Shown piece after piece: positions 36,234-64,000 of a DNA stretch of 64,000 nucleotides. The stretch is from NCBI RefSeq assembly GCF_004354085.1, contig NZ_SMSE01000005.1:1-64000 (forward strand), read 5' to 3'. Origin of the DNA: Seongchinamella unica (GTDB taxonomy: Bacteria > Pseudomonadota > Gammaproteobacteria > Pseudomonadales > Halieaceae). How positions within the stretch are numbered: the first letter of the stretch is position 1; every line of letters starts with the position of its first letter. Under the pieces are notes generated by a model. That model worked only from the letters and a program-made list of their open reading frames with translations, made no database searches and was not told the origin of the DNA. The translations under genes were made by a program, and so were the position numbers.

Positions 36234-36878
36234 ATGCGCAAGCGCAGATTATCACTGCTGGACCGATTTATCTCCGAAGCGGATTCGGTGATGCGCACCA
36301 TCACCAACCGCGGCCACTCCGCTGGCCGCCCCTCCCCCGCGGAAGGCCACAGTGAGAGTGAACTCTCCGCCAGGGAGCGTGCGCACGTGGCCGGCCTGAT
36401 GCGGGTCAACCACACTGGCGAGGTTTGCGCCCAGGCACTTTACCAGGGCCAGGCACTGACCGCGCGCCTGCCCAGGGTGCGCGAGGAAATGCAACAGGCC
36501 GCCGACGAGGAGATTGATCACCTGGTGTGGTGCGAGCAGCGGTTGCGCGAGCTGGACAGCAATACCAGCGTGCTCAACCCCCTGTGGTACGGCACGTCCT
36601 TCGCCCTGGGCGCTATCGCCGGCGCCATTGGCGATGATGTCAGCCTCGGGTTTGTCGCCGCCACCGAGGAACGGGTCTGCAATCACCTCAAGGATCACCT
36701 CAAACAATTACCCGAGGAGGACCGCAAATCGCGGTTGATCCTGCAGCAGATGCTCGAAGATGAGGAGCGTCACGGTACCAGCGCACTCGAGGCCGGGGGC
36801 AAGGATTTTCCGGATTCGGTCAAGGACGCAATGACGTCTGTGTCCCGGCTGATGACCGGCAGCAGCTACCGCATCTGA
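36234..36878 (+). CDS. coq7: Ubiquinone synthesis hydroxylase Coq7
   Basis: Di-iron monooxygenase for the last hydroxylation in ubiquinone synthesis. The 214-aa protein has the ferritin-like iron ligands in [30 protein letters not shown], and EDEERHG. Length and motifs match the COQ7 family. Downstream begins an accessory island instead of the speD-osmC order I recall from Pseudomonas. Confidence 0.95.
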
Positions 36879-36913: not shown

Positions 36914-37690
36914 ATGATTGAATGGCAGGATAAAACGCGCTTCCGGGTCGGGGACGTCAACTTCCGCGGCTTCGACTGGGTATTCGGCTCCCGGGAGTCC
37001 ACCACTGACGAATATTTCCTGCAAAAAGATGCAGCGATGATCGACGTGTACGAAGGGCTATTCGCCAGTCTGCAACCCCGCCGCATCGTCGAACTGGGTA
37101 TCTGGCAGGGCGGCAGCTGCGTGTTTTTCCACGCCCTGGCGCGGCCGGAGAAACTGGTGGCCATAGAGCTCAGCACCCAGCGGATCGCCGCGCTTGACAG
37201 CTACATCACTGACGGCTGCCGGCAACAGTCACTGGTCCCCCACTATGGGGTAAACCAGGCTGACACTGCGGCCCTGGCGAACATTCTGGCGAAGGAGTTC
37301 GGCGAAGAACAACTCGACCTGGTGATCGACGATGCCTCCCACTTTGTCGAGGAAACCCGCACCTCCTTTAACCTGCTGTTTCCGCGCCTGCGGCCGGGCG
37401 GCGTCTATGTCATCGAGGATTGGGCCTGGGGCCACGATCCGGTCGATCAACCGGACAGTGCGGTCAATCTCTACCCTGACCGCGAACCCCTCTCCCGGCT
37501 GGTATTTGAGATCGTGCTGGCTACCGCGTCGACTCGCGGACTTATCGCCGGGGTGGACATCGATCGCAACCTGGTGAGGATCATCCGGGGCAGTGCACCG
37601 CTGGAGAGGGAGGGCTTTGACGTCGCCCGTTGCTGCCTGCCCAGAGGTCGCAGCATGCTGGCTGACCCTGCCGCCAATCACCCGGCCTGA
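36914..37690 (+). CDS. Class I SAM-dependent methyltransferase-like protein
   Basis: The 258-aa protein has a Rossmann methyltransferase fold: motif I RIVELGIWQGGSCVFFHALA, an acidic strand end VAIELS, and DLVIDDASHFVEE with RPGGVYVIEDW. This is the pattern of the CmcI / Methyltransf_24 group, often found in surface-glycan and secondary-metabolite loci. The substrate cannot be predicted. It is the first gene of the island after coq7 and is followed after 3 bp by a sulfotransferase, so the two probably act together. Confidence 0.82.
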   Translation: MIEWQDKTRFRVGDVNFRGFDWVFGSRESTTDEYFLQKDAAMIDVYEGLFASLQPRRIVELGIWQGGSCVFFHALARPEKLVAIELSTQRIAALDSYITDGCRQQSLVPHYGVNQADTAALANILAKEFGEEQLDLVIDDASHFVEETRTSFNLLFPRLRPGGVYVIEDWAWGHDPVDQPDSAVNLYPDREPLSRLVFEIVLATASTRGLIAGVDIDRNLVRIIRGSAPLEREGFDVARCCLPRGRSMLADPAANHPA

Positions 37691-37693
37691 CTG

Positions 37694-38533
37694 ATGACCC
37701 CGGGCAAGCAGAAGCGCTACCTGGAACCCTACCAGCAGATAATGGCAGGGCAACTCGCTGAGGGGAGCCAGACGGCGAGCCGGATACCCGACCCGATCGG
37801 CGTGGGCGCCGTAGGCGGCAGCGGCACCCGGGTGGTGGCACAGCTTCTCGCCACGGCCGGCGTCGCCATGGCTTCACCCATCAACCGCGCCGGCGATGCG
37901 CTGGAGTGGCCGCCCTACCGGGCAATATTCGCCGCGCCGACGCTGCAACAACGCCCCGCCGAGCTGGTCCTGGACAACACCCATCGGGCCTTCGAGCAAC
38001 TGCTGGCTGCGCGCCGCAGTGCGCTGGGCCTCAGCGGACGCGCGGGATGGAAAGTCCCGGAGACATTTTTTCGCCTCGAATGGCTCAACAGTTACTTCCC
38101 GCAACTCCAGTACGTACACCTGATCCGCCATGGCCTGGATATGGCCTACTCGGATAACCAACGGCAGGCAAAGAACTGGGCGGAAACCCTGGGGCTGGAC
38201 GTGCGCCATGATGACCAGGGCAGGCTCTCGGCGGGCACCATGCTGGAGTACTGGTTAACCGCCAACGAAGTCGCCGGGGAAACCGTGGCCCGGATACTCC
38301 CCGGGCGCGGCTACGTTTTGCGTTTCGAACGGCTTTGCAGCCAGCCCCGGGAAGAAATCGCCGCCTTGCTGGCATTCCTGCGATTGCCCTGTCCGGAACC
38401 GCTGCTGGCAGAGCTGGCCGCCCTGGTGCAACCGCCCGCCTCCATCGGTCGTTACCGTTCCCGGCCCTGGCAGGAGGATATCAGCGCCGGGCAACGGGCC
38501 AGGCTGGAAAAGCTGGGTTACAGCGCGAACTGA
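37694..38533 (+). CDS. PAPS-dependent sulfotransferase
   Basis: Predicted to transfer sulfate from PAPS to a hydroxyl of a glycan or lipid. The 279-aa protein has a 5'-phosphosulfate loop GAVGGSGTRVVAQLL (about 38-52) and a 3'-phosphate motif YVHLIRHGLDMAYS. The loop has Gly-Ser-Gly-Thr-Arg in place of the classical Pro-Lys-Ser-Gly-Thr, a form seen in bacterial Sulfotransfer_3-type proteins. It ends 1 bp from the convergent sulfatase gene. Confidence 0.82.
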   Translation: MTPGKQKRYLEPYQQIMAGQLAEGSQTASRIPDPIGVGAVGGSGTRVVAQLLATAGVAMASPINRAGDALEWPPYRAIFAAPTLQQRPAELVLDNTHRAFEQLLAARRSALGLSGRAGWKVPETFFRLEWLNSYFPQLQYVHLIRHGLDMAYSDNQRQAKNWAETLGLDVRHDDQGRLSAGTMLEYWLTANEVAGETVARILPGRGYVLRFERLCSQPREEIAALLAFLRLPCPEPLLAELAALVQPPASIGRYRSRPWQEDISAGQRARLEKLGYSAN

Positions 38534-38534
38534 T

Positions 38535-40307
38535 TCAGGGCGGGCAGTGCGCCTCTCCTCCGGTGAGCGCGCGATAGTGAGCTGTCGGATTGTTATCGAG
38601 ATAGGTGTTGCTGATCAGCAACTCGCCGCTGTCCGCCGCCACCCGGGTGGGAGCATAGCTGTCCTCCAGCACTGTCGATACCAGGCTCTCCCGGCCACTG
38701 GCCAGTAACTCATCGTCCAGGTAGACCCGCAGGTGGACCTCGGCATCGCGCACACGCCGGGCCGGCCACTGGTAATAGGCCGACACGGTCAGCAATTGGC
38801 AGCCGGCCCCAGGCAGCTGAGACTGCAGCTCCACGCCCGGTATCTGCAGCGCCAACTGAGCGCCCCCCAGATGGATATCCAACTGCTGCTCCTGCGCCAC
38901 CAGGCGGCTGTAGGGGCGATCAGTCCGGACAGGCAATTGCAGGGTCCAGCCGCCGTATCCCGGTGTGCGCCGGTAACTGTCGCCAGCGTATTCGCGGCTG
39001 CCCTGCGACCCGGATGCGGATTGCACTTCTACCCGCCTTATACTGCTCTGCCACTGGTGATATTCGTCCCGTATTCGGGTCTGCTCCCGGGGGGTTGCAG
39101 GCCGGGGCGGCGCAAAATAGTTCTCGCCGGAAGCCCGTTCCTGCACCTCCACGCCCAGGCCCAATTGCTCACGCTGCAGGTCCAGCACCCCGTAGGCGCC
39201 CCATTCAGGGATATCAATATCCCAGTAGACTCGCGGAGGTCTCGGCAGGCTTTCGCCGTGCAGCAGCGGACCAAGGTCAAGCCCATCAAGGTCCTCCACC
39301 GCCGGCAGACCGGCGTAAGCCAGTAGTGTCGGCATCAGGTCGCGAATGAAGACGGGCTGTTCGATGTCCATCGGCGCCAGGCGGCCGGCCTGCGAGAGAA
39401 TCAACGGCGTTCTGATACCGCCCTCGTAAAAGGTGGTCTTCTTGCCGTAAAACGGCTTGTTACTGTCGCGAACCCGGTTGACACCGCCGTTGTCGCTGGC
39501 AAAAACCAGCAGGGTGTTTTCCAGTTGCCCACTGTCGGCCAGCGCTTGTAACAGACGGCCCACAGCCTCATCCAGTTGCGCCAGCAGTGACAGGTACTCT
39601 CCCTCGGGAGAGTCGGGAAAGCGGCCCGCAAACCGCGGCGCGGCCTGCACCGGGTTGTGCGGGGCAAAGTACCAGAGATTGAGAAACCAGGGGCGCGCCC
39701 CCTCTCCGAGCCGGTCGATGCGCTCAATTGCCGCGTCGGTGAGCAAATCCGTCAGGTGCCCTTTGTGCTGGACCGGCGGCTGACCCGCACGCTGCAGCCA
39801 GGGGTCAATATAGGACGCTGCCGGCCTCGCCAGGGATCCGTACCGCGTGGTCAGCGCATGGAGGAATCCGTACCAGTCGTCAAAACCCTGGGACCCGGGC
39901 TCCGCGGAGCCAACGCCGTGGCCCAGGTGCCATTTGCCGATATGCGCGGTGGCGTAACCTCCATCACGCAAGGCCTCGGCCAGGGTGACATGCTCCGGCC
40001 CGATGCCGCGGAAATGGGGAGGCACGCCAACACGACTGGCAGCCTTGCCGGTGAGCAACTCAACCCGGGCGGGGCGGCAACTTGGCTGGGCGTAATGGCG
40101 GCGGAATCGAACCCCTGCGGCGGCCAGGGCATCCAGGTGCGGGGTAACCGCCGAGCCATCCCCGAACGCGCCGAGGTCATTGTTCCCGAGATCATCGGCC
40201 AGAATCAGCAGGATGTTGGGGCGACCCGCTGAGGCACCGGTCGACGGACCGTCGGCAGAGCACCCGGCCAGCAGGAGCAGGGAGAGCAGCCAGCAGGCCC
40301 TCGGCAT
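38535..40307 (-). CDS. Lipoprotein arylsulfatase-type sulfatase (type I, Cys)
   Basis: Predicted to remove sulfate esters outside the cytoplasm. The 590-aa protein has a lipobox LLAGC (Cys16), metal ligands in ILADDLG (Asp38-39), and the formylglycine signature C77-RPAR followed by LLTGK. Cys77 must be oxidised to formylglycine for activity. The sulfatase domain fills about residues 28-390; the C-terminal third is an extra region. Its ATG overlaps the stop of the upstream radical SAM gene (TGATG), so the two are translationally coupled. Confidence 0.9.
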   Translation of the reverse strand: MPRACWLLSLLLLAGCSADGPSTGASAGRPNILLILADDLGNNDLGAFGDGSAVTPHLDALAAAGVRFRRHYAQPSCRPARVELLTGKAASRVGVPPHFRGIGPEHVTLAEALRDGGYATAHIGKWHLGHGVGSAEPGSQGFDDWYGFLHALTTRYGSLARPAASYIDPWLQRAGQPPVQHKGHLTDLLTDAAIERIDRLGEGARPWFLNLWYFAPHNPVQAAPRFAGRFPDSPEGEYLSLLAQLDEAVGRLLQALADSGQLENTLLVFASDNGGVNRVRDSNKPFYGKKTTFYEGGIRTPLILSQAGRLAPMDIEQPVFIRDLMPTLLAYAGLPAVEDLDGLDLGPLLHGESLPRPPRVYWDIDIPEWGAYGVLDLQREQLGLGVEVQERASGENYFAPPRPATPREQTRIRDEYHQWQSSIRRVEVQSASGSQGSREYAGDSYRRTPGYGGWTLQLPVRTDRPYSRLVAQEQQLDIHLGGAQLALQIPGVELQSQLPGAGCQLLTVSAYYQWPARRVRDAEVHLRVYLDDELLASGRESLVSTVLEDSYAPTRVAADSGELLISNTYLDNNPTAHYRALTGGEAHCPP

Positions 40308-41329
40308 CAGCCGGAGCGCGCGAGCAGTGTCTGGTCCTGGGCCAGTACCCGTTCGCGCCAGTCCAGGTCCTCGTGCATGCCGGGAAAACCCTGCTGGTCC
40401 GACCGCAGGGTGTCCAGCAGGCTGGACACATCATCGTCGGTGGCAAAACCGGCATCCCGCTCGAGCAAGATCTCACGCACCTTGTTGCCAGGATCCAGGT
40501 CGCAGTTGTTACAGGCGGAGATACCGCCACGGGCCAACAGCTCAAGCTTGGTGTTATTCAGCTCGGTAAACCCGAGCTCGCTTACATGACCCAGGGGGGT
40601 GGTTTTCTCGTAGTCGTTGCAGCACACATAATAGTGCCCACTCCAACCCACGAACAAAAACTTGAAAGCGGCATCGCAGAGACTGGAGATCCCGTGCTGG
40701 CTCATCAGCTCCTGGGCCTCATCAGTGGCAGAGCGGCTTTCCAGGAAGAGCTTGCCGTTGTCGCAGGCGCCGCCGCGGTTGTTCTGGCTGAACACCAGGA
40801 ATCTTTTGACACCGTGTTCCCGCCAGAACGCTTTCATTTCCTCGATCTTGCCCTTGTTGATGTCGTGCTCAACAATATTGATGGTGATCTCCACCTGGTC
40901 ACGGGCGATTTCGACGAACTTCAATGCGTTGGTCATGGAGTTGTCAAAATCCAGGTTATACACCTCCTCGTAGTCGTCGCCGAAATCACTGATGCTCAGA
41001 CTGATCTCCTTGAGGCCGGCGTCGACCAGGTCCCGGGCCAGGTTCTCGTGCAATTTCGAGGCATTACTGGTCATGCCCACGCGCAAACCCTTTTCGGTCG
41101 CGTGGTGCATGAACTCCACGATGTCGGCATGCAGGGTGGGCTCGCCCTGGCCGGTGAAGGTCACCTTTGGCAGTGGCGCGGGCAATTCCAACACCCGGTC
41201 TATCGCGCTAAAGAAGTTTTCCCGGCTGAGCATCCCCTGCTGCGGAGTCTTGTCGCGAGGGCAGAAGGAACACAGGGCATTGCACCGATTGGTCAACTCG
41301 ATATCGACTAGCACGTGAGAAAACTTCAT
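40307..41329 (-). CDS. Radical SAM/SPASM-like protein coupled to the sulfatase
   Basis: The 340-aa protein has the radical SAM cluster motif C16-x3-C20-x2-C23 (CNALCSFC), the GEP motif in TFTGQGEPTLH, and later cysteines C189, C218, C236, C237, C273, C276 that look like a SPASM or twitch auxiliary cluster. The spacing of the first three cysteines and the coupling to a Cys-type sulfatase suggest an anaerobic sulfatase-maturing enzyme. Fewer C-terminal cysteines than classical anSMEs and the CPRD sequence leave this open. The start is ATG 41329 with AGGG upstream; the frame is open to 41416. Confidence 0.82.
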   Translation of the reverse strand: MKFSHVLVDIELTNRCNALCSFCPRDKTPQQGMLSRENFFSAIDRVLELPAPLPKVTFTGQGEPTLHADIVEFMHHATEKGLRVGMTSNASKLHENLARDLVDAGLKEISLSISDFGDDYEEVYNLDFDNSMTNALKFVEIARDQVEITINIVEHDINKGKIEEMKAFWREHGVKRFLVFSQNNRGGACDNGKLFLESRSATDEAQELMSQHGISSLCDAAFKFLFVGWSGHYYVCCNDYEKTTPLGHVSELGFTELNNTKLELLARGGISACNNCDLDPGNKVREILLERDAGFATDDDVSSLLDTLRSDQQGFPGMHEDLDWRERVLAQDQTLLARSG

Positions 41330-41466
41330 AATGGCCCTGCTTGCAGCGACGGCCCGACGCGAGGCGCCAAGCGTGAATAAGCGGACAAGAATATAGCACT
41401 GCCTGACCCCGTTCAATCGCCGGTATCGGCGACGATGCTAAAGCAACCACTAAACATGACCGGAAC

Positions 41467-41805
41467 ATGCTCTACCTGATCGCGGCTGTCGCCGCGCTAA
41501 TCCTCGCCTTTGTTATCTGGCAACGACGCCGACCGGAAGCACCCGCGTCGCCAGAACCAGAGCCCCTGCACCTGGGCATCAAGGCCTACATGCGCGAGGA
41601 TTATGCGAGGGCCGAACCGGTGTTGCGCCACCATGCCGAGGCGGGCGAGCTGAAGGCCCAGCAGTTACTGGCCAAGATGTACTATTCCGGCCACGGTGTT
41701 CCCCAGGATCGCGAGCGCTACCTCCACTGGCTGGAACAGGCCGCGGCCCAGGGCGACCGCAGTGCCAAAGCGCGCCTGAAGGCGGCACGAAAACAGGGAT
41801 CTTGA
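41467..41805 (+). CDS. Membrane-anchored Sel1-repeat protein
   Basis: The 112-aa protein has an N-terminal membrane helix (LYLIAAVAALILAFVIW) and a Sel1-like repeat pair in the rest (AEAGELKAQQLLAKMYYSGH, then DRERYLHWLEQAAAQGDRSA). Such repeats are protein-protein interaction modules. It is divergent from the radical SAM gene. Confidence 0.78.
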   Translation: MLYLIAAVAALILAFVIWQRRRPEAPASPEPEPLHLGIKAYMREDYARAEPVLRHHAEAGELKAQQLLAKMYYSGHGVPQDRERYLHWLEQAAAQGDRSAKARLKAARKQGS

Positions 41806-41924
41806 GCGCCTGCGCCGGTTGCGCGGCACTCCCCGGGCCGCTTAGAATGCTCGCAACAGACTGATAATTCTTCAAAAACTTGTGAGTGCATGCAGGCCGC
41901 GCCCACCCTCCCCAGGTGTACCCG

Positions 41925-42701
41925 ATGTCCCTATATTTTCCACCCAGCCTCCGTGTTGATTTCGAGCCCAGACTGGGAGGCCAGAGCACCTGGCAGGACC
42001 ACGCGGCCTTCGGCTATGACCTGGTGGCCGCAAAAGCGCCCCGACTGCTGGTGGAACTGGGCAGCCAGCGCGGCTTTTCCTTTGGCGTGTTCTGCCAGTC
42101 GGCGCGGACTCACTCACTGGACTGCACCTGCTATGCGGTCGACACCTGGGCAGGAGATGAACATACCGGCAGCTACGGGGAAGAGATCTACGACAAACTC
42201 GCCAGTCACATTCGCGAGTACTACCGTCACTATGCCTACCTGCTGCGCATGACGTTTGACGAGGCGGTGGGCCAGTTCAGCGACGGCAGCATCGACCTGC
42301 TCCACATCGACGGACTGCACACCTATGAAGCGGTCTCGCACGACTTCCATACCTGGTACCCCAGGGTCGCAGCAGGCGGCGTCATCCTGTTCCATGACAT
42401 CGCAGAGAGACAGGGTGATTTCGGTGTGTGGAAGCTGTGGGAGGAGCTGCAACAGCAACACCCCTGCTTCACCTTCAAACATGGCCACGGACTCGGTGTG
42501 CTGCGCAAGCCGGGGGGTGTGGAACTCGCTGACGAACCGCAGTTGATTCAATTGTTGTTCGGGGGCTCCGCGGAAGACCGGCAAACCGTGGCGGAGATGT
42601 ACAGTATCGCCGGCCAGTTTTTGAAGAACCGCCGCCAGGCCCGCAAGTTTCGGGAGGGCCGGGAGCAGGCAATCAAGCGCAAGATGACCGGGCAGGCATG
42701 A
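41925..42701 (+). CDS. Class I SAM-dependent methyltransferase-like protein (Methyltransf_24 type)
   Basis: The 258-aa protein has motif I LLVELGSQRGFSFGVFCQSA, YAVDTWAGD, and DLLHIDGLHTYEAVSHDF with AAGGVILFHDI, the standard signature of the group that accompanies glycosyltransferases. Ile-Asp-Gly-Leu-His is intact. The ATG at 41925 begins MSLYFPPSLRVDF; the frame is open to 41886. Its stop overlaps the GT2 start by 4 nt (ATGA), so both belong to one operon. The substrate is unknown; a sugar or glycan methyl ester or ether is a guess. Confidence 0.82.
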   Translation: MSLYFPPSLRVDFEPRLGGQSTWQDHAAFGYDLVAAKAPRLLVELGSQRGFSFGVFCQSARTHSLDCTCYAVDTWAGDEHTGSYGEEIYDKLASHIREYYRHYAYLLRMTFDEAVGQFSDGSIDLLHIDGLHTYEAVSHDFHTWYPRVAAGGVILFHDIAERQGDFGVWKLWEELQQQHPCFTFKHGHGLGVLRKPGGVELADEPQLIQLLFGGSAEDRQTVAEMYSIAGQFLKNRRQARKFREGREQAIKRKMTGQA

Positions 42702-43696
42702 ATACCGCATCCCGGCCCCAGCTCTCCGTGGTGGTGGTGGCCTACCGCATGCCAGCGCAGCTGCAGCGCACCCTCTATACACTGTCAGCAGCCTACCAGC
42801 GAAACGTGCACCCGGATGATTATGAAGTCATCGTGGTGGAGAACCGCTCTGACCAGAACCTGGACGAAAGCGTGGTGGCGGGACTGCCGGGCAACTTCCG
42901 CTATTTCCTGCGCGACGAGACCAGCCCAACGCCGGTGCACGCCCTCAACTTCGGCTTCGAGCAGGCCCAGGGCGAGTACATCGGGATCATGATCGACGGG
43001 GCACACATGATCACGCCTCGTGTCATTGAGCACGCCATGGCCTGTTTTCGAGCTCATCCCAACTGCCTGGTGGCGATTCCGGTTCACCACCTGGGTCCGC
43101 AAGAGCAACACATCAGCACTCGCGAAGGCTATGACACGGCTGAACAGGACAGACTGTTGGGCGGCGTGGACTGGCGCACCGACGGTTACGAACTGTTCCG
43201 CATCAGCGTCTGGTGTAGCGCCCACTCCCGGGGCTTCATGCAGCCTATTTCCGAGTCCAACTGCTACTTTGTGCCGCGGCAAAACCTGGCCGCCATCGGT
43301 TACGCCGATAGCAGCTTTGACTACGAGGGGGGCGGCGCCATCAATCTGCACATGTTCCGCGCCCTCGGCCTGTTTCCCGGCAGCACCTACGTCCTGTTGC
43401 ATGGCGAGGCCAGCTTCCACCAGTTTCACGGCGGGGTAACCTCCAACGAAACCCGCGAGCAGGTGGTTGACAAGTTCTTCCAGCAACTGAGTGACCACTG
43501 GCAGGGCCAGTACCGGGCGCTGACCCGCGAGCCACTGTTCTACGGCAGTATCAGTCCCCAGGCCCAGGTCCTGGTCACCGCCGCGTCGCGCTTCGGCGAG
43601 CGGCGGGCAAAACGGCTGGGCGACATGGGTCAACCCCTGTGGCCGGAGCGAGCCGCCGGCGCCCTGGAGGACCTTCCGATATTCGGGAGCGAGTGA
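42698..43696 (+). CDS. Glycosyltransferase family 2
   Basis: The 332-aa protein opens with LSVVVVAYRMPAQLQRTLYT, has EVIVVENRSDQN and the nucleotide-sugar and metal site region GIMIDGAHMI, in the order of GT-A fold GT2 enzymes. The metal motif reads DGAH rather than DDD or DXD. The C-terminal half contains HQFHGG. It is cytoplasmic, with no membrane segment. It is coupled to the methyltransferase before and lies 4 bp before a sulfotransferase. Confidence 0.85.
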   Translation: MNTASRPQLSVVVVAYRMPAQLQRTLYTLSAAYQRNVHPDDYEVIVVENRSDQNLDESVVAGLPGNFRYFLRDETSPTPVHALNFGFEQAQGEYIGIMIDGAHMITPRVIEHAMACFRAHPNCLVAIPVHHLGPQEQHISTREGYDTAEQDRLLGGVDWRTDGYELFRISVWCSAHSRGFMQPISESNCYFVPRQNLAAIGYADSSFDYEGGGAINLHMFRALGLFPGSTYVLLHGEASFHQFHGGVTSNETREQVVDKFFQQLSDHWQGQYRALTREPLFYGSISPQAQVLVTAASRFGERRAKRLGDMGQPLWPERAAGALEDLPIFGSE

Positions 43697-43700
43697 CACC

Positions 43701-44663
43701 ATGAACCCGCCTGCGCCTCTGCTGCACATCGGCTATCCCAAGTGTCTGTCCACCTGGATGCAGCAGTGCCTGTTCCAGCCGGAACAGGGCATGGTCAATG
43801 TAATGAACCCCTTTGACATCCAGTTGGGACTGGTGAGTCCCGACCCGCTGGAATTCGAGCCCGAGGCATTTACCACGGAGTTCTGGAAGCGCTACCGTGA
43901 GCGGTCCCCCGGGACCGACCTGCTGCCGGTACTGAGTTCCGAAAATCTGGTGGGAGCGATCAGCCACGCCGGCTATAACGCGAAGGACAATGCCGACAAG
44001 CTGCACGCCTGCTTTCCCGATGCCAGCGTGCTGATCGTCATCCGTGAGCAGCGCTCGGCCCTGCGTTCCCTGTACCGCACCCTGGTCGCCTGGGGCATGC
44101 CGTATTCCCTGGGGCAATTACTGCAACCGGAATCCCATTGGCGCCATATGGCGCCCTCCTTCTCGCCCACAGCCCTGGAATACCACCGGCTTATCGCCTA
44201 TTACCAGCAACTGTTTGGCGCGGCGCAGGTGAAAGTCCTCTGCTACGAGGCTTTCGCTGAACAGCCCGGGGCATTCGTCAACGAGATTGTCAGCCACTGC
44301 CAGTTGCCCGCTGACCCTAATCGACTGGCCGGGCTTCGTGTCGAGCGGCGCATCAACCCCGGAACTGCCCTCTACGGCATCGAAAAACATCGGCTGGCAA
44401 ACCGCCTGTACCGCAACCTGTACAACGCCAACGGCCTGATCCGGGAGACAGAGCAACGCCAGTTCAAGCGCATGGCCGACTTCCGGCGGCGGCGGGAAGG
44501 GCTGCTGGACAGGTTGTTGTCCCCTTACCTTGAACGCAGGTTCTCTGCCCGCTTGCTGGCAGCGACGGCCGGCATGTTCGCAGACAGTAATCGCAGGACG
44601 ATGGAGTTGACTGGATTACACCTGGACGCATTCGGTTACCAACTGGAGTCGAATGACGCTTAG
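43701..44663 (+). CDS. Sulfotransferase
   Basis: The 320-aa protein has a P-loop HIGYPKCLSTWMQ (residues 9-21), the 5'-phosphosulfate site of PAPS sulfotransferases, and VLIVIREQRSALRSLYRTLV as the 3'-phosphate site. Length and motifs resemble bacterial polysaccharide sulfotransferases. Its end overlaps the VanZ-like gene by 11 nt. Confidence 0.82.
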   Translation: MNPPAPLLHIGYPKCLSTWMQQCLFQPEQGMVNVMNPFDIQLGLVSPDPLEFEPEAFTTEFWKRYRERSPGTDLLPVLSSENLVGAISHAGYNAKDNADKLHACFPDASVLIVIREQRSALRSLYRTLVAWGMPYSLGQLLQPESHWRHMAPSFSPTALEYHRLIAYYQQLFGAAQVKVLCYEAFAEQPGAFVNEIVSHCQLPADPNRLAGLRVERRINPGTALYGIEKHRLANRLYRNLYNANGLIRETEQRQFKRMADFRRRREGLLDRLLSPYLERRFSARLLAATAGMFADSNRRTMELTGLHLDAFGYQLESNDA

Positions 44664-45210
44664 GGCATTCAATAGCGTTTTTTACCAATCCAGGACCTGG
44701 GCAGTTATCTGGGCCTATATCCTGTTGACCTACCTCACCTTGCCGGTGATGCGCGATCTGCTCAACTATTTGCGGGATATGCTGGGCAGACAGCAGTTGG
44801 GGATGGCCTTCAACAGTGCACTGGCCATCGTTGGCCTGGCCATACTGTTCCTCACCCTGGCCCGGCGTGACTGGAAAACCGTGCTCTCGGTGGGCACTGC
44901 CCTGACCCTGATCGGCCTGATCGCGGTGCAGCTGAAAATACCCGAGGAGCGCTTTCATTTTCTGCAGTACGGCCTGCTCGGCGTGCTGGTCTTTTCCACC
45001 GCCCGCGAATATTCACTCCGTACAACAGTCCTTCTTGTACTGTTTGTGGTGGCGGTGGGTATTGGCGACGAAACCATACAGTGGCTACTGCCCAACCGGG
45101 TGGGAGACCTCCGCGACGTGGCCATGAACAGCGCAGCCGGCGTACTGGGGGCCTGGATTGGCAGGGCGTATTTCTGGCAGCCACAGGCAGACAACCCTGC
45201 CGAAAGTTAG
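44653..45210 (+). CDS. VanZ-like membrane protein
   Basis: The 185-aa protein has four to five membrane helices and the VanZ-like pattern of polar residues between helices: GDETIQWLLPNRVGDLRDVAMNSAAG, that is E-x3-Q, R, D and N-x3-G. I quote it in parts: GDETIQWLLPNR and DLRDVAMNSAAG. VanZ itself gives low-level teicoplanin resistance; the wider family is of unknown function and is common beside glycan genes. GGAG precedes the ATG within the sulfotransferase gene. Confidence 0.75.
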   Translation: MTLRAFNSVFYQSRTWAVIWAYILLTYLTLPVMRDLLNYLRDMLGRQQLGMAFNSALAIVGLAILFLTLARRDWKTVLSVGTALTLIGLIAVQLKIPEERFHFLQYGLLGVLVFSTAREYSLRTTVLLVLFVVAVGIGDETIQWLLPNRVGDLRDVAMNSAAGVLGAWIGRAYFWQPQADNPAES

Positions 45211-45217
45211 CCGCGAC

Positions 45218-45652
45218 TCAGTTCGGATCGGGGCTAAACTCGACAATTTCGTAGCTGTGACTCATCTCAACCCCTGCCGCGCCGAGCATGATTGATGCGC
45301 TGCAGTACTTCTCTGCCGACAGTTCCACCGCCCGCTTCACGTGATTTTCCTTGAGACCCACGCCGCTGACAATAAAATGCATATTGATACGGGTGAACAC
45401 GGCGGGAACCGCATCCGCCCGTTCCGCCTCGATTTCGACCTTACAGTCCACCACTTTCTGGCGTGACTTCTGCAGCATGCTCATCACGTCGTAGGTGGAG
45501 CACCCCCCGGTGCCTATCAGCAACATCTCCATGGGACGCGGCCCCAGGTTGCGCCCGCCAAGATCGGCGGAACCATCCATCACTACCGCGTGGCCACTAC
45601 CGGACTCGCCCACGAACATGGCGCCGTCGGTCCATTTAACCGTTGCTTTCAT
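45218..45652 (-). CDS. OsmC family peroxidase-like protein
   Basis: Predicted thiol-dependent hydroperoxide reductase. The protein (144 aa) has the two redox cysteines of the family in GTGGCSTYDVMSM and AEKYCSAS. It resembles the YhfA branch, which is encoded next to crp in many gammaproteobacteria, as here. The ATG at 45652 has GAGG 5 nt upstream; a GTG one codon earlier is possible. Confidence 0.9.
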   Translation of the reverse strand: MKATVKWTDGAMFVGESGSGHAVVMDGSADLGGRNLGPRPMEMLLIGTGGCSTYDVMSMLQKSRQKVVDCKVEIEAERADAVPAVFTRINMHFIVSGVGLKENHVKRAVELSAEKYCSASIMLGAAGVEMSHSYEIVEFSPDPN

Positions 45653-45767: not shown

Positions 45768-46412
45768 GTGTTGAAGCCGCAGATCACAAACACCATTCCC
45801 AACGTGGAAAACTTTCTTCGCCACTGCGAAAGACAGCAGTACAAAGCCAAGGCCACGGTGATGAAGCAGGGGGAGGCAGGGGACCGTCTTTACCTCATAC
45901 TCGAGGGCTCGGTTTCGGTGATGGTTGAAGACGAATCCGAACCCGATCACATGATGGTCGTGAGCTACCTGAACCCGGGAGACTTCGTTGGCGAAATGGG
46001 TCTGTTCGAGGACGAGATCACCCCCCGCAGCGCCATGGTGGTCGCCAAGACCCAGTGCGAGGTGGCGGAGATCAGCTATGACAAGTTCCACCAGATCAGC
46101 GCCCAGTACCCCGAGGTGCTTTACGCAATTGCCCGGCAGCTGGGCAAACGCCTGCGGCAGACCACCCGTAAACTTACCGACCTGGCCTTCGTCGACGTAT
46201 CCGGCCGCATCGCCCACACCCTGCTGGACCTGTGCCGGGAGCCGGATGCGATGACCCATCCGGACGGGATGCAGATCAAGATCACCCGCCAGGAACTGGG
46301 CAAGATTGTCGGCTGCTCCCGGGAAATGGCGGGCCGGGTGCTAAAGACCCTGGAACAGGATGGCCTGGTGTCGGTTTCCGGGAAGACGATGGTGGTGTTC
46401 GGGGCGCGCTAG
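45768..46412 (+). CDS. crp: cAMP-activated regulator, Crp/Vfr
   Basis: Global transcription regulator. The 214-aa protein has a cyclic-nucleotide domain with the cAMP contacts Glu76, Arg87 and Ser88 ([15 protein letters not shown]), a long dimer helix and a helix-turn-helix [20 protein letters not shown]. The opening and the [15 protein letters not shown] region are closer to Pseudomonas Vfr than to E. coli CRP. The start is GTG 45768. A weak promoter (TAGAAT at 45727-45732) lies upstream. It overlaps the end of convergent trpC by 4 nt. Confidence 0.94.
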
Positions 46413-62960: not shown

Positions 62961-63169
62961 TCCAGATTTCAATTCACGTCCTATGCTGGCAAGGATACCG
63001 AGAACACGCGAAACTCCCTCTGGTTCCCCACCGATTGATAAGCACCAAGCAGAACCACCCATCGGATTGGAATCATAAAATTTGCTTGGCAAGTCAGAAA
63101 TTGCGTGGGGGCAAAGCGAAGCCATGCTGGAAAGCCAATCCCTGTTCCCCTCAATCTGCAAGCAGATGA
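62957..63169 (+). CDS. Doubtful small gene between GT-C-like and sulfotransferase genes
   Basis: A 70-codon frame starts with GTG inside the stop of the gene before (GTGA) and ends with a TGA overlapping the next ATG (ATGA), matching the tight junctions of this operon. But the peptide is rich in Lys, Pro and Ser, shows no domain, and has no ribosome site of note. It may be chance or a remnant. Confidence 0.2.
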   Translation: MIQISIHVLCWQGYREHAKLPLVPHRLISTKQNHPSDWNHKICLASQKLRGGKAKPCWKANPCSPQSASR

Positions 63170-64000
63170 AAACCGTCTATATCCACGCCGGCAATCTTAA
63201 GACCGGTTCTTCAGCACTTCAGGCATTCTGCTCACGTCATCGAAACTGGCTAGGCTCCCGTGGCATCAACTATCTGGTATCGGCGAGACCAAGGAGAAAT
63301 CATGACACTCACAGCGCACTGCCACTGAGCCTGCTGAAGGAGCTCGGTTGCTATACACCGCTGTGGTACGACGACAACGTCATTTTCCAGGACATTGCTG
63401 CGACGGTTAAAACCGAAATCAACAACAGCGACCTGCCTGGCCAATTGATTTCCAGTGAAGAGTTCTACCGCTTTGGAACTTTCAGCCCCAAAGTGCAGGC
63501 TAAGGCAATTGAGCAACTGCAGGCCCTTTTTCATGGTTATGACGTTCGTGTCATTCTCTATATCCGGGGACCGATGGAATTTATGGTTTCCTGGTACAAG
63601 GAGGTAAACGAAGAGCCGGTTCCACGCCCCAGATTCTCGAAGTATTTTATGAAAATACCTAAGGCCTACCTGGATCCGACTTCAACCGCCTCCTTCCTCA
63701 GGCAATGTTTTGGCGACGACGCGTTACGCGTGCTGCCTTACACAAATAGCTCCACAGATCATATTCAGAAGTTTCTTCAGGAAATTGGCGTTAATGATTC
63801 GCCATATAGAGAACAAGAGCGTGCTATCGTCAATCAATCACGCCCTGAATACGAAATCGAGCCCCGAAGGCTAGCGCGCATAGTTGCGCAGCTTCCCGTA
63901 GAGGACAGAGAGGAGTTTGCGCAAAGTTCCGCTACAGACAACGGCAGTACATATTCCGAATTCTGCAGGAAGATCGATTCGATAAACCTGGCATTCAGCG
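63166..64000 (+). CDS. Sulfotransferase (partial, runs off the right edge)
   Basis: An open frame from ATG 63166 continues to the window end with no stop (278 codons). It encodes MKTVYIHAGNLKTGSSALQ, a PAPS P-loop of the H-x-G-x2-K-T-G-S-S-x-L-Q type, then ISSEEFYRFG and VRVILYIRGPMEFMVSWYKE as the 3'-phosphate site. An in-frame ATG at 63124 would add 14 residues before the conserved start. It is the third sulfotransferase in the window and extends the second island beyond it. Confidence 0.85.
   Translation, partial: MKTVYIHAGNLKTGSSALQAFCSRHRNWLGSRGINYLVSARPRRNHDTHSALPLSLLKELGCYTPLWYDDNVIFQDIAATVKTEINNSDLPGQLISSEEFYRFGTFSPKVQAKAIEQLQALFHGYDVRVILYIRGPMEFMVSWYKEVNEEPVPRPRFSKYFMKIPKAYLDPTSTASFLRQCFGDDALRVLPYTNSSTDHIQKFLQEIGVNDSPYREQERAIVNQSRPEYEIEPRRLARIVAQLPVEDREEFAQSSATDNGSTYSEFCRKIDSINLAFS

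Follow-up and report, generated by a model that had tools for sequence, protein, structure and literature searches.

What does a bacterium make with two methyltransferases, two sulfotransferases, a glycosyltransferase, a sulfatase and a radical S-adenosylmethionine (SAM) protein that are encoded side by side between housekeeping genes? Such a locus lies at positions 36914-45210 of the window, the 64,000-nucleotide stretch of Seongchinamella unica DNA (contig NZ_SMSE01000005.1) that was analysed here. Sulfated bacterial glycans are little known, and those of marine bacteria may have a part in biofilms, grazing, carbon turnover and the binding of phages. The locus is a real, conserved accessory cassette whose enzymes would sulfate and methylate a glycan, in all likelihood one of the cell surface. 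We consider it fairly probable that eight genes, from the methyltransferase gene MT1 to the sulfotransferase gene ST2, build or tailor a sulfated, O-methylated surface glycan that is edited by an exported sulfatase.

All nine open reading frames (ORFs) of a preliminary description of this DNA were found in the ORF list of the window at the coordinates given earlier. The families assigned there are borne out by Pfam, each match lying above its cut-off: Methyltransf_24 (twice), Sulfotransfer_3 (twice), Sulfatase, Radical_SAM with SPASM, Sel1, Glycos_transf_2 and VanZ. The genes are arranged in three sets. Behind coq7, MT1 (36914..37690, + strand; 258 amino acids (aa)), a predicted SAM-dependent O-methyltransferase of CmcI/RMNT-like type, and ST1 (37694..38533, +; 279 aa), a predicted 3'-phosphoadenosine 5'-phosphosulfate (PAPS) sulfotransferase starting 3 bp past it, run rightward. 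The second set runs leftward and consists of the radical SAM gene (40307..41329, -; 340 aa, with a short SPASM-like C-terminus) and the gene of an S1-family sulfatase (38535..40307, -; 590 aa), the stop of the former overlapping the start of the latter by one base. The third set is again rightward: it opens with a small Sel1-repeat protein (41467..41805, +; 112 aa, with an N-terminal hydrophobic segment recognized by eye) and continues, closely spaced or overlapping from MT2 onward, through MT2 (41925..42701, +; 258 aa; SAM-dependent methyltransferase, Methyltransf_24 93 bits), GT2 (42698..43696, +; 332 aa; a GT-A-fold glycosyltransferase joined to MT2 by an ATGA overlap) and the second predicted PAPS sulfotransferase, ST2 (43701..44663, +; 320 aa), to the gene of a VanZ-like membrane protein (44653..45210, +). 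For the radical SAM gene, 41329 is a more probable start than 41416, because its homologues in related islands align from the former position. MT2 starts at about 41925, and the MT2 searches were run with a query one codon short (41928-42698).

Both sulfotransferases exceed the Sulfotransfer_3 cut-off of 27 bits (ST1 52.4, ST2 36.0) and retain what we take to be the PAPS-binding motifs, namely the 5'-phosphosulfate loop and the Arg/Ser contacts of the 3'-phosphate. The GGSGTR loop and R145...S153 of ST1 are invariant in 7/7 aligned homologues, and K14, S17, R115, R122 and S123 of ST2 in 6/6 aligned rows; the motif loss that the preliminary description had named as an objection is not seen. By these motifs, ST1 and ST2 are predicted to be PAPS sulfotransferases with a glycan as putative target. 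No solved structure matched ST1 at E 0.1, and ST2 matched one solved sulfotransferase. PAPS can be made in these bacteria, since adenosine 5'-phosphosulfate (APS) kinase is encoded in all eight genomes of the genus. The window's genome has 15 Sulfotransfer_3 and nine Sulfatase match rows.

The sulfatase (183 bits) carries the CxPxR motif as CRPAR (C77-R-P-A-R81), and D38, D39, C77, R81, K125, H127, H217, D272, N273 and K290, which we take from arylsulfatase A to be the ten catalytic residues, are invariant in 6/6 aligned rows. C16, the cysteine of a lipobox recognized by eye, is likewise invariant in the six aligned rows; the protein is predicted to be an exported lipoprotein, with a putative location outside the cytoplasm and a putative glycan target. 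Its solved relatives include carrageenan sulfatases, N-acetylgalactosamine (GalNAc) sulfatases and arylsulfatase A. The carrageenan sulfatases and the lipoprotein-like signal would also suit an enzyme that, with the radical SAM protein, scavenges sulfate or carbon from foreign sulfated polysaccharides, and polysaccharide loci and sulfatases have been reported in Halieaceae strains in a paper whose main text uses the word 'sulfotransferase' 0 times (PMC10100682). Scavenging is nevertheless very improbable, as none of the nine proteins belongs to a glycoside hydrolase, lyase, TonB receptor or transporter family, the neighbours are biosynthetic and related sulfatases recur beside sulfotransferases.

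A link between sugar transfer and methylation comes from gene fusions. MT1 matches Methyltransf_24 above its cut-off and RMNT_CmcI just below (21.9 bits versus 23.2), and among its closest solved structures are CmcI and O-methyltransferases that act on macrolide sugars. In GT2, the motifs DGA, GGG and GE..FHQ.HGG are invariant over 23 sequences. The GT2 model has a predicted local distance difference test score (pLDDT) of 92, and its nearest folds are K4 chondroitin polymerase (in the lead, with a template modelling (TM) score of ~0.5), TarP and GalNAc-T2, a likeness that would speak for the fold and not for the sugar; by sequence, no solved structure matched at E 0.01. GT2 and MT2 are fused in one open frame in genome G063. 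A TylF-type methyltransferase, GT2 and a CmcI-type methyltransferase share one frame in an Acidimicrobiales metagenome-assembled genome (MAG; L146), and on a Rhodobacter plasmid a fusion of GT2 with a CmcI-type methyltransferase stands beside rfbABCD, Wzz and a sugar transferase. The likeness of MT1 to the CmcI part is weak (28% over 138 residues for the Rhodobacter plasmid protein, E 0.002 for L146). The fusions place glycosyl- and methyltransferases in a common pathway, at least one of them in a surface-polysaccharide setting.

The same enzymes would be enough for a short molecule, given that one glycosyltransferase, two methyltransferases and two sulfotransferases are at hand. A small metabolite or glycolipid that carries sugar, methyl and sulfate groups, as opposed to a surface polysaccharide, is in keeping with the macrolide-sugar methyltransferases among the relatives of MT1 and with a GT2 relative on a Sphingobium plasmid that lies beside acyl carrier protein, fatty acyl-AMP ligase, P450 and PhyH genes. 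We regard such a product as unlikely: no nonribosomal peptide synthetase, polyketide synthase or acyl-carrier family occurs among the nine proteins, and fused or neighbouring homologues lie in the rfb/Wzz cluster or near ABC transporter genes. Modification of a protein on the cell surface, for instance flagellin or one of the S-layer, is a further alternative. GalNAc-T2 among the GT-A fold matches would fit it, and sulfotransferases of Halobacterium are reported to modify a protein-linked glycan (PMC11980604). As none of the nine proteins belongs to a flagellin, pilin or oligosaccharyltransferase family, and as the recurring neighbours point to polysaccharide, glycosylation and sulfation of a protein appears very unlikely.

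We compared the site across relatives to see how stable the locus is. Its flanks are genes that we take to be coq7 (36234..36878, +) on the left, an osmC-like gene (45218..45652, -; from the flank comparison) on the right, and crp (45768-46412), trpC and trpD beyond it, and their order was constant in the genus loci read. Matches to coq7 were obtained at E 0.001 in 35 of the 38 genomes searched for coq7 and crp; 25 of the 38 belong to the family of the window's genome, that genome included. The two genes are close together on one contig in 22 of the 25, with gaps taken from two match tables. The gap is 0.5-1.5 kb in 17 of these 22 and 7.6-8.9 kb in four, namely the window's genome (G000), G004 (where a contig end truncates coq7), G005 and G006; these four belong to a single genus, which includes Seongchinamella sediminis and Pseudohalioglobus lutimaris (Halieaceae). 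G023 has a gap of 4.9 kb and an inverted crp, coq7 and crp are on separate contigs in G009, and G011 and G012 have no close crp. The short site in relatives and the presence of the island in four of the eight genus genomes make the interval an accessory island. This upholds the earlier proposal of an accessory locus between conserved housekeeping neighbours.

Between coq7 and osmC, ST1, sulfatase, radical SAM, Sel1, MT2, GT2 and ST2 follow one another in the same order in all four carriers; MT1 has no match in the G006 island, and vanZ none at this site in the other three carriers (E 1e-4). In the non-carriers, the stretch between coq7 and osmC was searched with the window genes (tblastn, E 1e-4): none matched in G007, a distant ST1-like gene (32% identity) was the sole match in G003, and vanZ was the sole matched gene in G001 and G002. 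Because vanZ is the only match in these two genomes and absent from the other three carriers, it was set aside as a cassette member on synteny; it is probably a separate, older resident of the site, leaving a cassette of eight genes from MT1 to ST2. The preliminary interpretation as a locus that builds and edits a sulfated, methylated glycan thus keeps its enzymes, intact motifs and recurring partners, some of them in surface-polysaccharide clusters, and loses vanZ. On a tree of six flanking proteins, island presence needs two changes, which may be one gain and a loss, for instance in G003, or two gains.

The cassette has probably been exchanged horizontally. Foreign base composition was rejected as a sign of transfer, as the GC content of the interval (0.56-0.66 in 1-kb windows) is similar to that of the surroundings. 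The window contains no tRNA, and no transposase or integrase is among the Pfam matches of the nine proteins. A phage-borne origin was rejected, as GT2 matched none of 50,697 phage records at E 1e-5 and had just three weak, partial relatives in a pattern-based scan of viral contigs. Spread by plasmids was rejected as well, since GT2 relatives occur in 3/72,556 plasmid records, all below 36% identity. The radical SAM protein matched 105 plasmid records, with 22-26% identity among the eight listed.

The genes are maintained by selection. Ratios of nonsynonymous to synonymous substitution (dN/dS) were estimated pairwise with the Nei-Gojobori method, and the comparison with G006 was relied on, as several dS values against G005 and G004 exceeded 1.5 or could not be computed. 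Between the window and the other carriers, dN/dS is 0.065-0.34 wherever computable. Against G006, it is 0.067 for radical SAM, 0.065 for MT2 and 0.086 for GT2, compared with 0.041-0.077 for the housekeeping genes purD, coq7, crp, trpC and trpD; for ST1, sulfatase, Sel1 and ST2 it is 0.190, 0.170, 0.138 and 0.121, and MT1, absent from G006, gives 0.207 against G005. The cassette genes are under purifying selection, and the core is nearly as constrained as housekeeping genes. In dN, ST1, sulfatase, Sel1 and ST2 (0.104-0.159 against G006) stand apart from the radical SAM/MT2/GT2 core (0.053-0.061), both sulfotransferases and the sulfatase reaching two to three times the core value against this closest carrier. 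Since ST1, ST2 and the sulfatase change faster than the core, the sulfation pattern is suggested to be the part that varies between species.

The same families recur together at other sites. MT2 was found in 44/140 family genomes (E 1e-15; part of the matches are fragments), with one match per genome except in G127 and G147 (two each), and with exactly one in 7/8 genus genomes. Loci of at most about 3.7 kb were fetched for 30 of the 46 match rows, the four islands among them. In the 26 non-island loci, counted from the printed rows, several of which are near-copies, GT2 is adjacent or fused in 22, and a PhyH or other 2-oxoglutarate-dependent oxygenase is present in 16, a sulfotransferase in 14 and a sulfatase in 6; GT2 is missing from L103, L108, L111 and L114, of which L114 lies where its contig ends. 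In L128 the GT2-MT2 locus has an ABC transporter pair near by, the permease scoring just below its Pfam cut-off; in L127 the gene near by is of MBOAT type, and in L104 it is a match to an ABC ATPase. Within the genus, ST3-GT2-MT2-sulfatase (G001) and GT2-MT2-sulfatase (G002) stand beside genes that we take to be tol and queC, and ST3-GT2 is kept among the genes of this neighbourhood in G000 and G006. G003 has ST3-GT2 with three more GT2 genes in another stretch, and G007 has MT2 and GT2 in a region with an MBOAT gene, recognized by sequence likeness to the L127 relative on which Pfam was run. A single clade for the genus MT2 copies at their three sites was rejected in a tree of 32 MT2 proteins (approximately unbiased test, p 1e-5); the copy of G007 groups with that of a different genus (G065). 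The test is weakened by the long branch on which the island copies stand by themselves. We read the MT2 pattern as probable cassette exchange with one MT2 per genome. One MT2 homologue (G049:C135:2178-2921; L094) has an internal TAA stop, from decay of the copy or a sequencing error.

What the radical SAM protein contributes is less clearly indicated. It scores 61.1 bits against a Pfam cut-off of 29.5, and the CX3CX2C motif and C189, C218, C236, C237, C273 and C276 are invariant in 9/9 sequences. It shares the radical SAM core and an auxiliary Cys region with BlsE/DesII-type enzymes and with anaerobic sulfatase-maturating enzymes (anSME). Its model is weak (pLDDT 68.5), with BlsE and DesII as nearest folds and MoaA and anSME close behind, so the fold comparison would leave both sugar and peptide chemistry in play. 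The protein lies far below the cut-off of every NCBIfam model among the best 25 of 48. Assignment to anSME (TIGR03942) was rejected: it did not reach the curated cut-off, and the window's genome gave no TIGR03942 match at E 0.001. The family is found in 19/140 family genomes (E 1e-30), at 28 loci that represent 23 places (five tandem pairs are counted twice; the four islands are included). Beside the radical SAM gene stand a sulfatase in 13 of the 28 (one a weak match) and Sel1 in nine, the four islands and five further loci; PhyH is present in eight and a sulfotransferase in 12.

This neighbourhood raises the possibility that the protein is dedicated to maturing the sulfatase, whose Cys77 it would convert to formylglycine, as a third type beside the formylglycine-generating enzyme (FGE) and anSME. 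Besides the 13 neighbouring sulfatases, the radical SAM and sulfatase genes overlap or are direct neighbours in 4/4 islands. The genus also presents an activation puzzle. The Cys-type motif is present in 6/8 further sulfatase loci of G000, 10/11 of G003, 16/17 of G007 and 3/3 of G005 (17 of the 20 match rows of G007 and three of the 21 of G005 were fetched). PF03781, the FGE family, gave 20 rows and 15 distinct loci in the eight genus genomes. These are presumably five EgtB-like proteins, eight copies of one large protein that ends in an FGE-like domain, and two other FGE relatives, one of which (L131) has PvdO as best solved match. All 15 were inspected, some in part, and none showed the two-cysteine motif that we take to mark FGE. 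For anSME, 0/8 genus genomes exceeded the TIGR03942 cut-off, with weak matches in G002 and G004, and 2/14 genomes exceeded it in the control. Given many Cys-type sulfatases, no canonical FGE and no anSME above the cut-off, either a known enzyme was missed or something else is used. The sulfatase maturation machinery of E. coli has been described as unidentified, in a source that cites a paper on a third system (PMC6189696).

Even so, we judge a maturase role distinctly unlikely. G003 and G007 have many Cys-type sulfatases and no such radical SAM protein at E 1e-30, a sulfatase is next door in just 1/5 non-island Sel1 loci, and the best fold match, from the weak model, is BlsE. The six invariant cysteines past the core are also fewer than the set that we recall for anSME. 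A bolder combination would have Halieaceae write and erase sulfate on their own surface glycans, with cytoplasmic sulfotransferases writing, the outside lipoprotein sulfatase erasing and the overlapping radical SAM gene providing the third kind of sulfatase activator; this combination we hold to be highly improbable.

If the cassette acts on a surface glycan, as we prefer, GT2 would add a sugar to a lipid-linked or growing glycan in the cytoplasm, MT1 and MT2 would O-methylate sugar hydroxyls with SAM, ST1 and ST2 would add sulfate from PAPS, and the radical SAM protein may modify a sugar further by radical chemistry. Export would use the ordinary polysaccharide exporter of the cell. Beyond the inner membrane, the lipoprotein sulfatase would remove selected sulfates and so edit the pattern after export. 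A candidate acceptor pathway is a polysaccharide cluster (L227) at ~58-78 kb of the same contig (window 58442-63999, on to ~78.2 kb), ~13-33 kb downstream of the cassette. It encodes a bacterial sugar transferase, UDP-galactopyranose mutase, an aminotransferase, a CDP-glycerol glycerophosphotransferase, an FkbM methyltransferase and, at contig 76.7-78.2 kb, a Wzm/Wzt-like ABC exporter pair. The earlier suggestion that the locus decorates a product made elsewhere is possible with such a cluster near by, and it is qualified by the cassette's own glycosyltransferase, which may add a sugar.

Several observations weigh against a surface-glycan cassette. Pfam finds no polymerase, flippase or exporter among the nine proteins of 36914-45210, where a complete capsule or O-antigen cluster would hold an exporter or flippase plus a polymerase, and in the carriers G006 and G005 the stretch that corresponds to L227 has exporter genes without the polysaccharide cluster (G006 has flippase-like and chain-length-like genes further on, by eye; L231). 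Many GT-A enzymes have a DXD motif, and GT2 has DGA. Acceptor, donor sugar and product are putative. No mobility gene is seen, and loci of related genomes are not independent of one another. In the five non-island radical SAM-Sel1 loci, GT2 and MT2 are absent within ~1.5 kb, so the radical SAM protein is linked to the glycan less firmly than the other genes. The wider radical SAM neighbourhoods are mixed (18 named loci, of which L135, L136 and L147 are islands). A gammaproteobacterial MAG has sulfatase, GT2, Sel1, radical SAM, MT2 and GT2 within ~8 kb (L138), two GT2 genes and five of PhyH type accompany the radical SAM gene in the Acidimicrobiales MAG (L146), L143 pairs radical SAM with PhyH and has GT2, MT2 and ST2 relatives 5-10 kb off, and in L137, L139-L142 and L144 PhyH lies next to radical SAM or across Sel1, in some with a sulfatase. 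Counting against the pattern are L145, L148, L150 and L151, with none of these partners, and L149, with just distant ABC-transporter and sulfotransferase matches; no gene calls were obtained for L152.

Among known systems, the sulfated capsule or O-antigen clusters of Vibrio sp. KMM 8419 and Cobetia marina KMM 1449 are likewise reported to combine PAPS sulfotransferases and glycosyltransferases on a surface polysaccharide (PMC11641403, PMC11766843). The KMM 8419 cluster is large and has exporter, sugar-nucleotide and its own cysNDC genes, and 'sulfatase' is absent from the main text of that paper (PMC11641403), whereas the cassette is compact and consists of tailoring genes with one glycosyltransferase, a radical SAM protein and a sulfatase. 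A putative sulfated glycosaminoglycan cluster of the marine bacterium Pontiella also places a sulfotransferase among GT2/GT4 genes; it has more glycosyltransferases, and the sections consulted mention no radical SAM-Sel1 pair (PMC7356697). MT1 shares its family and nearest solved relatives with CmcI/RMNT and TylF/mycinamicin-type O-methyltransferases, below the RMNT_CmcI cut-off. Judged mostly by titles and the starts of abstracts, we found no open-access paper that describes this gene combination. The combination defines a small group of enzymes that recurs, in places in fused form, and whose chemistry can be tested enzyme by enzyme. Genes for adding sulfate and for a sulfatase that is predicted to be exported stand together in this one locus. 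With its many Cys-type sulfatases and its apparent lack of canonical FGE and of anSME, the genus is a concrete place to seek an unidentified maturation system.

Some further features were noted in passing. The polysaccharide cluster lies between pdxA-like and ksgA-like genes, and the start of an ORF at 63124-63999 resembles, by eye, a sulfotransferase PAPS loop (KTGSSAL), with no Pfam match at E 0.01. The PF03781 loci include G000:C1:1558611, G000:C4:700704 and G000:C3:148751, with homologues L131-L134, L163 and L195-L204. On plasmid pBSY17_1 of Sphingobium sp. RAC03, from an algal phycosphere (L240), two PhyH genes accompany the GT2 relative and its acyl carrier protein, fatty acyl-AMP ligase and P450 neighbours, and a sulfatase near by adjoins an annotated formylglycine-generating enzyme. 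Radical SAM, small Sel1 and PhyH-type oxygenase genes form a recurring trio in L119, L122-L125, L137 and L140-L142, and radical SAM and PhyH stand side by side in L139, L143 and L144.

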